A stretch of 64,000 nt of DNA from Bradyrhizobium cytisi. Its GTDB lineage: Bacteria; Pseudomonadota; Alphaproteobacteria; Rhizobiales; Xanthobacteraceae. Below the pieces are notes generated by a model. That model made no database searches. It was not told the DNA's origin and was given only the letters and a program-made list of their open reading frames with translations. The stretch covers positions 186,001-250,000 of the forward strand of contig NZ_VSSR01000013.1 in the NCBI RefSeq assembly GCF_008123515.1, written 5' to 3'. This document shows positions 4,189 to 63,423 of the stretch, piece by piece (the first letter of the stretch is position 1; every line of letters begins with the position of its first letter). A program made the translations under genes and the position numbers.

Positions 4189-4279
4189 GTAGGGTGGGCA
4201 AAGGCGCAACTGCGCCGTGCCCACCATCTGTTGGCCGGTGTCAAAAGAGGTGGGCACGCTCCCGCTTTGCCCACCCTAC
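4189..4279. repeat. 91-bp inverted-repeat element, family A, copy 1
   Basis: It begins GTAGGGTGGGCAAAG and ends with the perfect 15-base complement CTTTGCCCACCCTAC. Inside, a second nested pair (GTGCCCACC and GGTGGGCAC) would extend a cruciform or hairpin. Copy 2 at 17479-17569 has exactly the same length. It lies between the GST start and the 3' end of the hydrolase. No transposase or clear target duplication is visible. Confidence 0.85.
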
Positions 4280-4297
4280 GGGGGCACTGGGCTTTGC

Positions 4298-9350: not shown

Positions 9351-9438
9351 CGTCATTGCGAGGCGCGCAGCGACGAAGCAATCCAGACTGTCCCTGCAGA
9401 GGGATTCCTGGATTGCTTCGCTGCGCTCGCAATGACGG
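9351..9438. repeat. long inverted-repeat element, family C, copy 1
   Basis: The 5' arm CGTCATTGCGAGGCGCGCAG leads into AAGCAATCCAG; the 3' arm is CTGGATTGCTTCGCTGCGCT and onward to AATGACGG. It folds into a long hairpin. It ends only 23 bases before the NIPSNAP start codon, so it is either in that gene's leader or overlaps its promoter. Other copies: 12399, 57237 and 63342. Confidence 0.9.
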
Positions 9439-12398: not shown

Positions 12399-12478
12399 CG
12401 TCATTGCGAGCGCAGCGAAGCAATCCAGACCGCCGCCGCGCAAAGATTCTGGATTGCTTCGCTGCGCTCGCAATGACG
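12399..12478. repeat. long inverted-repeat element, family C, copy 2
   Basis: Perfect terminal inverted repeats of about 31 bases starting CGTCATTGCGAGCGCAGCGA, with a short GC-rich centre. It occupies almost the entire gap between the convergent TRIC and cytochrome c genes, where it could act as a bidirectional 3' end. Confidence 0.9.
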
Positions 12479-17478: not shown

Positions 17479-17569
17479 GTAGGGTGGGCAAAGGCGCAAA
17501 GTGCCGTGCCCACCATCTCACCAACATTGCGGTCTGAAGAGGTGGGCACCTTCGCTTTGCCCACCCTAC
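17479..17569. repeat. 91-bp inverted-repeat element, family A, copy 2
   Basis: Terminal repeats GTAGGGTGGGCAAAG and CTTTGCCCACCCTAC are identical to copy 1 at 4189, as is the total length of 91 bases. The centre differs (CACCAACATTGCGGTCTGAA). It begins 8 bases after the oxidoreductase stop codon. Confidence 0.88.
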
Positions 17570-17570
17570 G

Positions 17571-17702: not shown

Positions 17703-17842
17703 CTCGTGCCCCGGACGCAGCGCAGCGCTTCTTTAGCGGTGCGCTGCAGAGCCGGGGCCCATGTTGCAACGATGTGCGCGGGCGGCATGGGTCCCGGCTC
17801 TGCGCAGCAAAGCTAAGGCGTTGCAGCGCGTCCGGGACATGA
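17703..17842. repeat. inverted-repeat element, family B, copy 1
   Basis: Outer arms GTGCCCCGGACGCAGCGCAG and TTGCAGCGCGTCCGGGACAT; inner arms GGTGCGCTGCAGAGCCGGGG and TCCCGGCTCTGCGC. It forms a long interrupted hairpin. Other copies: 20585 and 39354. Copy 1 lies about 125 bases upstream of the thiolase. Confidence 0.85.
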
Positions 17843-37330: not shown

Positions 37331-37358
37331 CGGCGGGGCTATTTCCCCGCCGTTTTTT
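37331..37358 (+). terminator. rho-independent terminator overlapping the end of the phosphodiesterase gene
   Basis: An 8-bp stem CGGCGGGG / CCCCGCCG with loop CTATTT and six T residues at 37353-37358. It ends the plus-strand gene at 36702 while overlapping the last codons of the convergent minus gene (stop at 37339-37341). Confidence 0.9.
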
Positions 37359-39195
37359 GCTTGCCGGCGTCCGGCTCGAGGCCGAGCGTGCGGCCGGGGA
37401 AGCCGGCGGCGTCGAAATAGCGTTGGCTGCCGACGCGCTGGACGTTGAGCACGGTCTCGAGACCGTTCTCGGACTTCTTCTTCGACTTCTCCACGGCCTT
37501 GAATGCCTTCGGCACGATGCCGTTGGGCAGCGCCTCCGACATCACCCGGCCGACCAAGCCGCCGTTCTCCGAGCCGCGCAGGCCGAGGAGCTGAGCCGCA
37601 GTCATGCCGACGTCGGCATTGCTGACCGGCAGCTCGTCGACGAAGCCGGCTTTGAAGTCCGGACCGATCGCAGCCATGAAGTTGTAGGTGTCGCCACGGC
37701 TGAAGCTGCCGTGCATGCCCTGGCCCTGGCGCAGCACGGTGTCGGCCACCTGCACCGAGCAGTTGGTCGGCGCCTCGCCGCACTCGCTGGCATAGGAGCG
37801 GAAGTTGACCACGATCGCCGGCGTCGGCGTTGCCGCCTTGCCGCGCAGATTGATGCTCGACAGCGGCAGGGTGCCGGGGAAGCGACCGAGCTGGTCGTCG
37901 ACGAACAGGCCGGAGACGTAGTCCTGCTCCATCAGCGCCTTGATGGTCTTCGCTGCCAGCTTCTTGTCCTTATTCGGCAGGTAGATCAGGTCCGAACCGC
38001 CATTGGTGGCGATGACGAGGTCGGGCTTGGTCGGATCCTTGCCGAGCACGCCGTTGCCGGCCTTCGGATGGGCGTTGCCGGTGACGGCGGCGTTCTTGTC
38101 GTTGGGGTCGAACAGCGGCAGGTCCAGCGCTTTCGCAAGGTCGATCGCCAGGAATCCCATCGGCAAAAAGTCCTTCGGCGTGTCGTCGTAGCTGAGCTTG
38201 GCCGATGGGCTGGTCTTGCTCTCCTTGGAGATGGTCGAGAAGCCGTGGTCGGCCTGGATCATGATGTTGGTGTTGGCGGAAAGGCCAAGCTCGTCGAGTG
38301 CCTTGCGGATCTGGGCGAGGTTGTTGTCGGCGTTCTTGATACCAGCCATCGAGGTCGGCCCGTTGATGCCTGGCAGGATCTGGTTCAGGCTGTCGCCGGT
38401 GTTGTGCTGGCTGCCATCGGGATCGCGCGACCAGAAAACGAGGACGAACGGCTTGTTGCGTGCCTTGAACATCGGCAGCAGCACCTTGGTGGCGACGTCG
38501 GCGAAATAAGCCTGCTGCGCGACGTTGGCGACGGTGGTGCCGGGCGTCTTGGCATCGCCCGCCTTGGCATTGTCGCCGCGCGACGGCGCGGCGAGGGCAA
38601 GGCCGGCCTTGGTCAACGCCGCCTTCACCTCGTCCGACAGCGGTACGCCAATCTTGGTGCCGGTGGCGTCGTCGAACACGACCGAATGCAGGCCCGGCTT
38701 GTCGGGATGATCGGTGTGGTCCCACTGGTAGGTCGGACCGTGCTTGCCCAGCGCGGCAGTGCTGAAGCCCTTGTCGCGGGCCATCTTCAACACGGTCTCT
38801 TCGTTGAGATAGTCGCCCTTGAAATGCTCGTCGATGTCGCCGAGCACCGCGTCGTTCTCGATGAAGGGGACCACGGTGTCGCCGGCGGGCACCGAGGTGT
38901 AGTTGGTCCAGATCGTGTTGGAGAACACGCCGGTGTCGCCGAGATAATGGCCGGTCGACATCGCCGAGCCGTTGGCCATGGTGAAAGTCGGGAACAGCGA
39001 ATGCGAGTTCTTGAAATTGACGCCCTTGTCGCGGACCTCGGCCATGGCCGGCGCGGTCTCGGGGGTGATCTTCAGTGCGCGCAGCCCGTCGGGAATGAAC
39101 AGGATCAGGTTGCGGGGCGTGTTGTTCTGGGCGGAGGCAAATCCGGTGGAAAGCACTGTCAGTCCGGCTGACAGCAACACCAGTGAACGGCGCAT
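37339..39195 (-). CDS. secreted ENPP-like phosphodiesterase / alkaline phosphatase family protein
   Basis: A 618-residue exported metalloenzyme with signal peptide MRRSLVLLSAGLTVLSTGFA. Metal ligand Asp36 in ILFIPDG, probable nucleophile Thr72 in FPTFTMANGSAMSTG, then FWSRDPDGSQHNTGD and QADHGFST supplying the remaining Asp and His metal ligands. This order matches nucleotide pyrophosphatase/phosphodiesterases with two Zn ions. It probably hydrolyses phosphodiesters or nucleotides in the periplasm, giving phosphate. ATG at 39195 with AGGAG 6 bases upstream (a TTG at 39198 also precedes it). Confidence 0.88.
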   Translation of the reverse strand: MRRSLVLLSAGLTVLSTGFASAQNNTPRNLILFIPDGLRALKITPETAPAMAEVRDKGVNFKNSHSLFPTFTMANGSAMSTGHYLGDTGVFSNTIWTNYTSVPAGDTVVPFIENDAVLGDIDEHFKGDYLNEETVLKMARDKGFSTAALGKHGPTYQWDHTDHPDKPGLHSVVFDDATGTKIGVPLSDEVKAALTKAGLALAAPSRGDNAKAGDAKTPGTTVANVAQQAYFADVATKVLLPMFKARNKPFVLVFWSRDPDGSQHNTGDSLNQILPGINGPTSMAGIKNADNNLAQIRKALDELGLSANTNIMIQADHGFSTISKESKTSPSAKLSYDDTPKDFLPMGFLAIDLAKALDLPLFDPNDKNAAVTGNAHPKAGNGVLGKDPTKPDLVIATNGGSDLIYLPNKDKKLAAKTIKALMEQDYVSGLFVDDQLGRFPGTLPLSSINLRGKAATPTPAIVVNFRSYASECGEAPTNCSVQVADTVLRQGQGMHGSFSRGDTYNFMAAIGPDFKAGFVDELPVSNADVGMTAAQLLGLRGSENGGLVGRVMSEALPNGIVPKAFKAVEKSKKKSENGLETVLNVQRVGSQRYFDAAGFPGRTLGLEPDAGKQKTAGK

Positions 39196-39353
39196 CAAAA
39201 TCTCCTAGCGGTGAGGCGGCTTGGCCGCCGAACCGCGGCCCCCGGCAATCGTTTAGTTTTGCTGTGTGACGGTTTTGTTACAAGAGCGAAAGTACATGCA
39301 GAAGTGACGGGAAGGTGGCGTCCACGGATTCGTCGTTGCTCGGTACGGACGCC

Positions 39354-39492
39354 CTCGTATCCCGGACGCGCTGCAATGCGTCGCATTGCTGCGCAGAGCC
39401 GCGACCCAGAAAGCGACACAGTGCGCTGATGCACGGGCCCCGGCTCTGCAGCGCACCGGCGAAGGAGCGCTGCGCTGCGTCCGGGGCACGAG
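39354..39492. repeat. inverted-repeat element, family B, copy 3
   Basis: Outer arms TATCCCGGACGCGCTGCAAT and GCGCTGCGTCCGGGGCA; an inner GGGCCCCGGCTCTGCAGCGC region corresponds to the inner arm of copies 1 and 2 in inverse order. It lies upstream of the phosphodiesterase gene. Confidence 0.8.
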
Positions 39493-39517
39493 ACCGTCTT
39501 TGAAATATCAACATGGG

Positions 39518-40110
39518 TTCGCATCCTCGCGGCTTGTTTCGCCCGAGCTTTGCTCCGTCGCCTCACCCTCATTTGAAAGAGGGCGCAGGGAAGGCCGGGA
39601 GCCGGCTGGCTCCCATTGACCGCTATGCCATGAGTAGATTGCGCTACACTGCACAGCGGGTAACAGGGCAGCCGGAGGCATCCCGGCCTTCCCTGCGCGG
39701 ATGGTTGGAACGGCTTATGTCGTGCTCTCCCCGGGGAGCGATGCACTATTGCCCCCGTCGCCTTGCGGATGATTGATACGCGTGTCCGGTTGGACACAAC
39801 GCATCACCGCAAGCCTTGACGCACAGGCTCCGGGCGCCAGGACCACACGATTTGGCCGTACGCAGATCGCACCGGTCGTGTGCGCGAGGCCTTCGCTCAC
39901 GGTTGCCCGCCCTGCAAAACCCTTCGCGCCGATGTGACCCTCGCCCACCGCCGCCCGGCCCGCGTTCGTGACGATCGCGATGCGCCCCTCTTCCTTGGGC
40001 CGGAGTGGGACCATACATACGCCGTTTCCGAATTTCGGTAAAGTAGAATATTTTTGACCGTGCGGATTGACCGAGGGCTTGGGTGTTCTGCCCGTCGGGC
40101 AACGCAAGTG
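39518..40110. repeat. long (about 590-base) structured intergenic repeat of Bradyrhizobium type
   Basis: Noncoding stretch with several strong palindromes. An 18-bp perfect inverted repeat begins GCGCAGGGAAGGCCGGGA (39582-39599) and closes at 39681-39698. A competing hairpin GGGAGCC-GGCT-GGCTCCC lies at 39596-39613. CTCCCCGGGGAG is at 39727-39738, CACACGA / TCGTGTG at 39844-39882, and a TGCCCGTCGGGCA hairpin is near 40090. From memory, close relatives of this sequence recur in Bradyrhizobium intergenic regions. Minus-strand open frames inside it look spurious. The boundaries are approximate. Confidence 0.65.
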
Positions 40111-40181
40111 TTGGGCCTCCGGGCTACGGTCGCCGACTTCCGGGCGTTCGGTCGCACCCGGTTCCCTGTTAATCCCGTGCC

Positions 40182-40197
40182 TTAACCAACAATTAAT
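40182..40197 (+). promoter_or_regulatory. CtrA-like box TTAA-N7-TTAA
   Basis: TTAACCAACAATTAAT fits the alphaproteobacterial CtrA consensus TTAA-N7-TTAA, about 85 bases upstream of the gene at 40282. Sequence match only; the AT-rich stretch makes chance possible. Confidence 0.35.
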
Positions 40198-40281
40198 TAT
40201 ACGTTTGCGGGTGGGCAACAGCCCGGCCTAGCGTGCGGTGGGGAGCCGTTATCCGCGAAGCCAAACGAGTTGGTGCGTATC

Positions 40282-40743
40282 ATGATGTCCAGATCAAATG
40301 GGGCCTTGCTCGCCTCGCTCAGCGCAGCCGCGCTGCTCCTTCCCCCCAGCGACAGTTTTGCGCGACCGGGCGGTGCCGCCCCGCATGGCATGGTGAGCGC
40401 TGCCGCACCGCCGGTTGCGGCACGTCCGCCGATCGCGCCGGGGATGCGGTTCCGCGGCCGCAACAATGCTCGCAACAATCCCTGGGTTTATTGGCCGGGC
40501 GGCGGCGGGTTCTTCTACGACGGTGCGGCGTACAGCGAACCTTTCGCCGATGCCGGCCAGCCTGTCACCAACGACGTTCGCTATACCTACACCTACGACG
40601 TTCCCTGGGACTGGGCGCATCGCTTCCCGCCGAACGTCGTGCCGTCCGATCGGCCCTATGTGCCGAGCTGCCCGACGGAATCCGTGACGGTGCCCGGCCG
40701 CGGCGGCGGCGAGCACACCGTCAACATCATGCGCTGCTACTGA
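40282..40743 (+). CDS. hypothetical exported protein
   Basis: A 153-residue protein with a signal peptide (MMSRSNGALLASLSAAALLL) and a low-complexity Ala/Pro region. A conserved-looking core follows: NPWVYWPGGGGFFYDGAAYS, YTYTYDVPWDWAHRFPPNVV, and CPTESVTVPGRGGGEHTVNI ending in MRCY. Two Cys may form a disulfide. Rich in aromatic residues. The start is one of two adjacent ATGs at 40282 and 40285. I recall the type from Bradyrhizobiaceae but not a named domain. Confidence 0.7.
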   Translation: MMSRSNGALLASLSAAALLLPPSDSFARPGGAAPHGMVSAAAPPVAARPPIAPGMRFRGRNNARNNPWVYWPGGGGFFYDGAAYSEPFADAGQPVTNDVRYTYTYDVPWDWAHRFPPNVVPSDRPYVPSCPTESVTVPGRGGGEHTVNIMRCY

Positions 40744-57236: not shown

Positions 57237-57320
57237 GCCGCCATTGCGAGCGAAGCGAAACAATCCAGAATCTTTCCGCGGAGGGACTCTGGATTGCTTC
57301 GCTGCGCTCGCAATGACGGA
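57237..57320. repeat. long inverted-repeat element, family C, copy 3
   Basis: Arms GCCATTGCGAGCGAAGCGAA (with CAATCCAGA) and CTGGATTGCTTCGCTGCGCT (with CGCAATGACGG) around CTTTCCGCGGAGGG. It sits between the hybrid kinase stop and the EamA start, both on the minus strand. Confidence 0.88.
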
Positions 57321-63341: not shown

Positions 63342-63423
63342 CGTCATTGCGAGCGCAGCGAAGCAATCCAGACTGGTGCCTGCGGAAAGATTCTGGATTG
63401 CTTCGCTTCGCTCGCAATGACGG
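63342..63423. repeat. long inverted-repeat element, family C, copy 4
   Basis: Arms CGTCATTGCGAGCGCAGCGA (with AGCAATCCAGA) and CTGGATTGCTTCGCTTCGCT (with CGCAATGACGG). It lies between pccA and the lyase gene and ends 39 bases before the latter's ATG. Confidence 0.9.

Follow-up and report, generated by a model that had tools for sequence, protein, structure and literature searches.

A dispersed multi-copy family of predicted large structured RNA genes in Bradyrhizobium and related genera

An intergenic stretch of the Bradyrhizobium cytisi genome appears, with a probability of about 0.7, to be one copy of a dispersed multi-copy family of predicted genes for a large structured noncoding RNA, encoded here on the minus strand. 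Positions refer to the window, that is, the whole 64,000-nucleotide stretch of contig NZ_VSSR01000013.1 that was analysed. The family is a multi-copy RNA family without a match in Rfam 15, and a prior description was not found in open papers: no account of the repeat or of the RNA was recognised in the titles and abstracts of the open literature, and a 2012 paper on small RNAs of the Bradyrhizobium/Rhodopseudomonas lineage may cover it. A first-pass annotation, made from the sequence, had marked positions 39518-40110 as an intergenic repeat with competing hairpins that could be a noncoding RNA, a MITE or the remnant of a mobile group. The region is intergenic as described, with a phosphodiesterase-like gene (minus strand) on one side and a small ORF (plus strand) on the other, and two of the ORFs that cross the element gave no Pfam match at the curated cut-off. 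Predicted ORFs that span such copies are in many cases probably not genes. The features of the locus are the following:

37339-39198, minus strand: phosphodiesterase-like gene (PF01663).
39356-39494, no strand assigned: separate palindromic repeat with GTCCGGGGCACGAGA (motif B at 39479), just past the 3′ end of the RNA; ends estimated by eye.
39510-40007, minus strand: proposed RNA gene of about 500 nt, running leftward (consensus fold, G-U/A-C asymmetry, covariance model match); the 5′ end is put about 7 nt past the -10 box and the 3′ end at the limit of conservation.
39526-39547, minus strand: terminal hairpin near the 3′ end of the conserved unit (consensus fold).
39565-39584, minus strand: small hairpin following the rod (consensus fold).
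39585-39696, minus strand: rod, a long irregular hairpin that holds the 18-bp inverted repeat (inverted repeats, fold).
39597-39614, minus strand: short 7-bp hairpin within the 3′ arm of the rod (canonical pairing).
39697-39951, minus strand: central multibranched domain, which holds CTCCCCGGGGAG at 39727-39738 (fold, covarying pairs).
39954-40004, minus strand: first (5′) hairpin, with the most widespread core (consensus fold, BLASTN).
40014-40042, minus strand: promoter position, TTTACC (40042-40037), a 17-nt spacer and TATGTA (40019-40014).
40043-40118, minus strand: conserved stretch upstream of the promoter, which holds the TGCCCGTCGGGCA hairpin at 40089-40101 (consensus).
39715-40218 and 39746-40102, minus strand: further ORFs across the element, predicted only.
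Start at 40270, plus strand: small ORF flanking the element, without Pfam match.

The structural elements listed by the first-pass annotation were recovered with a single correction. The perfect 18-bp inverted repeat exists and its right arm is at 39681-39698 exactly as claimed; the left arm, which had been placed at 39582-39599, lies one base rightward, at 39583-39600. The 7-bp hairpin (GGGAGCC at 39597-39603 pairing with GGCTCCC at 39608-39614), the palindrome CTCCCCGGGGAG and the hairpin TGCCCGTCGGGCA are all present. The annotation had further described the region as one unit of a repeat common in Bradyrhizobium, and this was borne out. BLASTN placed the element at 32 sites in its own genome, where the window copy and five others span nearly the whole element with 86-95% identity, and the ends of the repeat unit fall near those claimed. 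Additional copies are found across the genus: matches were present in 25 of the 25 Bradyrhizobium genomes examined (the own genome and relatives), two of which had one match only. Among the 40 relatives examined besides the own genome, the 16 from other families of the order gave no BLASTN match.

The distribution was followed with a covariance model, R1, built from 32 copies with the window copy left out. The window copy, which was outside the training set, was recovered by covariance model at 39865-39693 on the minus strand (164.9 bits, E 2.4e-44). The number of R1 matches was 18 in the genome of the window (G000), 18 in G021, 19 in G008, 54 in G177 and 2 in G103, counts that include weak matches (one of the 18 in G021 and one of the two in G103). 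Wider searches were run with stricter filters, at which weak matches are lost; R1 then matched 29 of 149 genomes (10 of 47 genera) in a sample of the family, 4 of 150 in a sample of the order, each of them a Bradyrhizobium genome, and 1 of 289 in a sample of the class, namely the own genome. BLASTN on the family sample reached 43 of 149 genomes and 17 of 47 genera, many of them through one short core, and the segment most often found outside the genus was 39942-39990. A scan of named genomes with a core pattern returned at least 120 stretches; among the 80 matches listed most were from Bradyrhizobium, with two from Afipia, two from Rhodopseudomonas and several from metagenome bins. The core pattern also occurs in L329, a record titled Frankia sp. 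RB7 whose name may be wrong, and on two IMG/VR contigs (L378, 9931-9953; L379, 8984-9006), possibly in host flanks of prophages. Removal of duplicate places reduced the loci collected from 120 to 90. No Rfam 15 family reached the gathering threshold on the window element, and none did on the element in ten other loci, so that known Rfam families were rejected as its identity. In L193, from another genus, WsnRNA46 matched below threshold at 1109-1240 on the minus strand (43 bits against a gathering score of 65.3, E 5.7e-6), just past the 3′ end of the RNA; both this and a sub-threshold cspA match fall outside the profile match of the element.

The strand of the RNA, which had been absent from the first-pass annotation, is the minus strand. 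The consensus fold of 48 full-length copies (RNAalifold, energy plus covariation term) scored -386.6 for the minus strand versus -326.2 for the plus strand. The count of G-U and A-C combinations was restricted to the 145 pairs common to the predictions for the two strands, because a fold chosen for one strand would bias it. Read in the minus sense, G-U exceeded A-C by 260 to 108 in the 48 copies used for folding, by 338 to 149 in 35 held-out copies of the genus and by 220 to 171 in 19 sequences from other genera, in which one place is represented twice (L127 is the place of L193; it was retained in the hairpin, energy and G-U counts on 102 sequences and dropped from promoter scoring and the shuffle test of pairing).

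The pairing itself is conserved above what column shuffling gives, shuffles that do not preserve relatedness among the copies. In 101 sequences, 87.6% of the cells pair versus a mean of 80.5% and a maximum of 80.8% in 200 shuffles, and 1139 cells carry double changes versus a shuffle maximum of 438. The 17 copies of the own genome gave 90.1% paired versus a shuffle maximum of 85.9%. In the other genera the excess was small (70.9% versus 68.6%, maximum 69.6%), and their 55 pairs with double change lie inside the shuffle range (maximum 57). A tree-based null was applied with a custom script rather than R-scape, using 12 simulations. Over the whole alignment it left only two pairs with E<=0.25, both of them pairs of the structure, and when the structure pairs alone were tested, 9 of 177 reached E<0.05. 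Nine of the top 60 covarying pairs are in the structure versus 0.06 expected; the other 51 are off-structure and chiefly connect a small set of columns by which the subfamilies differ. The three best-scoring covarying pairs (39754/39735, 39916/39894 and 39794/39785) all lie in the central domain. The stems thus covary in this analysis, more weakly in other genera, which favours a structured feature. The terminal hairpin, by count, has 331 Watson-Crick, 4 G-U and 1 A-C cells with 0 double changes.

A further line of evidence came from the sequence upstream of the first helix. Candidate promoters were compared with TTGACA and TATAAT at a spacing of 16-18 nt, the highest possible score being 12. 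In other genera, 17 of 18 copies score at least 9, compared with 4.3% of shuffles, and these sigma-70-like promoters lie just upstream of the first helix, in the same position as TTTACC/TATGTA of the window. Most of the other-genus profile matches start near columns 60-88 of the Bradyrhizobium alignment, which is the promoter site; the upstream stretch at 40043-40118 is kept across Bradyrhizobium copies and is not apparent in most of the other-genus copies. The -10 box ends about 9 nt ahead of the first helix, and the RNA would therefore start close to that helix. In Bradyrhizobium the commonest form, TTTACC-17-TATGTG, is a weaker match: the 48 and the 35 copies have mean scores of 7.25 and 7.09 versus 6.39 and 6.24 in shuffles, with 6 of 48 and 2 of 35 reaching 9. 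The promoter of the window copy is itself weak, and a scan of this copy for consensus promoters found none; a scan of it for intrinsic terminators likewise returned none. Together, the strand asymmetry of G-U pairs, the covariation and the position of the promoter support the first of the options that had been put forward, a noncoding RNA.

The main rival to an RNA gene is a selfish, non-autonomous mobile element: it would bear a structured RNA whose fold serves the spread of the element, and would depend on a transposase or reverse transcriptase supplied from elsewhere. This is unlikely, although the genomes hold many dispersed copies, the 54 of G177 among them, and the boundaries of the copies are clear-cut: a consensus of 20 copies from G177 has sharp ends on both sides versus unrelated flanks, and in G098, from another genus, the sequences upstream of the copies are unrelated to one another as far as the promoter. 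Terminal inverted repeats, however, were not found. Among the inverted repeats in 39400-40300 no pair joins the two ends, where only a closing helix of 4 pairs is predicted, and the MITE that had been suggested is not supported. The suggested remnant of a mobile group is not established either: at the one clean junction of the three loci compared, in G014, the copy and the adjoining repeats are missing, the flanks lie a few bases apart and no target duplication was recognised by eye, in what may be a deletion. No sure new insertion was seen at the three loci compared for empty sites. Also against such an element, in 42 copies that are truncated or belong to other subfamilies no long insert was found between the two halves, except for a weak second match in L013; loci are common to different species and copies decay in place; and the plasmid and phage collections gave no BLASTN match, on which ground an origin from either was rejected, with the reservation that these collections may lack records near the own genome. 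A group II intron or HEARO element was likewise rejected, no such Rfam family being found on the window copy up to E 10, and among the 20 nearest ORFs a single integrase domain occurs, and neither a reverse transcriptase nor an HNH family. The element may have been mobile in the past.

Returning to a family of RNA genes, the relationships among the copies are informative on how it has evolved. In a tree of 51 copies, from which two duplicate entries had been removed, copies cluster by genome and not by locus. Mean identity is 88.7% between copies of the same genome (69 pairs), 83.2% between copies at the same locus in different genomes (56 pairs) and 83.7% for all other pairs (1150 pairs). The clustering by genome, together with the existence of loci common to several species, therefore constitutes a pattern of concerted evolution. 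Gene conversion would be the simplest cause of the likeness within genomes; repeated insertion at the same sites could be an alternative source of the genome clusters. The window locus was compared with 29 other genomes, of which 8 have a complete copy, 3 a partial copy at or near contig ends, 2 a remnant (G103, and G014 as judged by eye) and 16 no copy detected in the flank covered. At the L002 locus, the 12 genomes comprise 4 with a complete copy, 1 interrupted, 1 partial near a contig end, 2 remnants and 4 without a copy, one of which ends there with its contig. The interrupted copy is that of G197, broken by an insert of about 1.3 kb (L160, 3484-4762). The L005 locus, again in 12 genomes, has 4 complete copies, 1 partial and 6 without, and G103 has no match to the flank. 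Decay in place is visible as fragments at two loci in G103 and at one in G009. G103 represents a near-loss lineage within the genus (L125, L139, L168, L190, L215), and since no more than two R1 matches are left there, one of which is weak, the family is dispensable.

The surroundings of the copies contain palindromes and no constant gene. Fourteen of the 20 loci whose nearest ORFs were analysed have Pfam matches there; M20 peptidase and LysR domains each occur at two loci, no domain is common to more than two of the 20, and a linked partner gene was rejected for lack of a shared neighbour among these ORFs. Eight palindromic repeat motifs were searched within 160 nt of the element and found downstream of the 3′ end of the RNA in 49 of 71 copies, versus upstream in 15 of 71. 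This downstream excess is only suggestive, because the motifs were picked after viewing the flanks and without a random intergenic control. In G177, as counted by eye, such a palindrome lies within 75 nt in 13 of the 16 copies with a placed 3′ end, and these palindromes are of three kinds or more. REPs occur in the 3′-UTRs of other bacteria, as stated in the part of PMC5082802 drawn on here, so palindromes downstream would fit a transcription unit. By eye, L018 and L055 have a tRNA-like sequence near the 3′ end of the RNA, at a distance of a few tens of bases.

The palindromes inside the element and the REP-type repeats adjoining it would also be expected of a DNA-level element, serving chromosome organisation or as a protein-binding repeat, in which the RNA fold is a by-product of palindromy. 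The orientation of the copies points the same way: in three genomes that each form a single contig, 38 of 54, 13 of 17 and 14 of 19 copies are oriented along the presumed direction of replication. Position 0 was taken as the origin, base skew was sampled for G177 alone, at 20 places, and a weak match in G021 was excluded. Relative to a baseline of 60%, however, the bias is not significant in any of these genomes (P 0.08, 0.13 and 0.16). A DNA palindrome is symmetric, whereas G-U is preferred over A-C in the sense of one strand, and the promoter occupies a constant place in other genera; an element acting as DNA is accordingly very improbable.

The two folds at 39582-39613 had been described as mutually exclusive, as in a switch, and this claim did not hold. 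Both are conserved: the short hairpin has 677 canonical cells of 706 in 102 sequences, with 42 cells changed on both sides in 7 pairs, and the overlapping part of the rod has 83 double-change cells in 15 pairs. The rod is nevertheless lower in predicted energy in 102 of 102 sequences, by a mean of 10.6 kcal/mol, and in none of the 102 are the two folds within 2 kcal/mol of each other. A two-state switch between folds of similar stability was therefore rejected; since the rod is favoured in every sequence, the energy model makes an equilibrium switch between the two unlikely, and a kinetic switch is the only form that would still be possible. That the element is a cis-regulatory RNA or attenuator of an adjoining gene, with its two folds acting as the switch, is scarcely credible, for the conserved short hairpin and its double changes have to be set against the stability of the rod, against neighbour genes that vary from locus to locus and against a downstream gene that is co-directional with the RNA in 35 of the 81 loci for which a crude gene caller reported one.

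Large structured bacterial noncoding RNAs such as OLE, GOLLD, ROOL and HEARO have several hundred nucleotides, a complex conserved fold and a narrow distribution, and most of those known exist singly or in a few copies. The RNA predicted here resembles them in its length of several hundred nucleotides, its complex conserved fold and its narrow range. Unlike them, it has no Rfam family at gathering score and no linked protein gene was found, and its copy number, with 18-54 matches in four of the five genomes counted, also contrasts with that of large structured RNAs. The rRNA operons under concerted evolution (PMC6002687, as far as its cited part describes them) are similarly dispersed and more alike within than between genomes; the element differs from them in that its copies diverge by about 11% within a genome and in that one relative has two matches. 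The window element has no Rfam rRNA match. Some of the BjsR sRNAs of B. japonicum USDA 110 are present in several imperfect copies, 2 to 4 of them, in the portion of PMC5082802 used here. Like the family they are RNAs of Bradyrhizobium, and they differ from it in the copy number given there.

The following model is proposed. The RNA gene would be read from the minus strand, starting near 40007 and ending near 39510, and would belong to a family with 18 copies in this genome and up to 54 in the five genomes counted, spread over Bradyrhizobium and related genera. Each copy would have its own sigma-70-type promoter, and the fold of the transcript would comprise a 5′ hairpin, a central multibranched domain, the long rod and a pair of small hairpins. 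The REP-type palindrome that often comes after the RNA may protect or end the transcript. The copies would occupy old positions, with deletion eroding them in some lineages and gene conversion homogenising them within a genome. A candidate trans-acting role is the most likely one for the predicted RNA, which may be an abundant RNA with a structural or regulatory task, its dose distributed over many loci. More tentatively, it might represent a new class of RNA: trans-acting, about 500 nt long, encoded by 18 to more than 50 copies converted in the manner of rRNA genes, with interchangeable REP 3′ caps and a cellular partner lost in G103-like lineages. Large structured bacterial RNAs with unexplained roles are an open field, and tens of dispersed copies, an rRNA-like homogenisation, a near-loss lineage and a well-studied symbiont genus make the function of this one testable.

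The family also has features in common with REPs. Br-REP1 and Br-REP2 (PMC5082802) and the GTAG and CGTC REPs (PMC3733652) are, in the portions of these papers used here, dispersed, intergenic and structured as well, and both the REPs and the element occur in Bradyrhizobium and Rhodopseudomonas (PMC5082802, PMC3733652). REP-type palindromes with the motifs CGTCATTGCGAG and CGTCATTCCGGG often adjoin copies of the element. REPs are short, 20-40 bp in the part of PMC3733652 considered, versus about 600 bp for the element, which folds into a multibranched structure and has a promoter position of its own. Neither the Br-REP1 consensus nor a relaxed, shortened Br-REP2 pattern (PMC5082802) matched the window when up to 3 mismatches were allowed, and identity with Br-REP1 or Br-REP2 was rejected on this basis. 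Other palindromes are scattered over the window. The GTCCGGGGCACGAGA motif recurs at 17706, and pairs of the palindromic motif GTAGGGTGGGC, 80 bases apart in each case, are found at 4189-4280 and 17479-17570 (ends approximate). CGTC-type REP palindromes (CGTCATTGCGAG with GGATTGCTTCG) are located at 9351-9437, 12399-12478, 57291-57318 and 63342-63422, also with approximate ends, and three of these four sites are inverted pairs.
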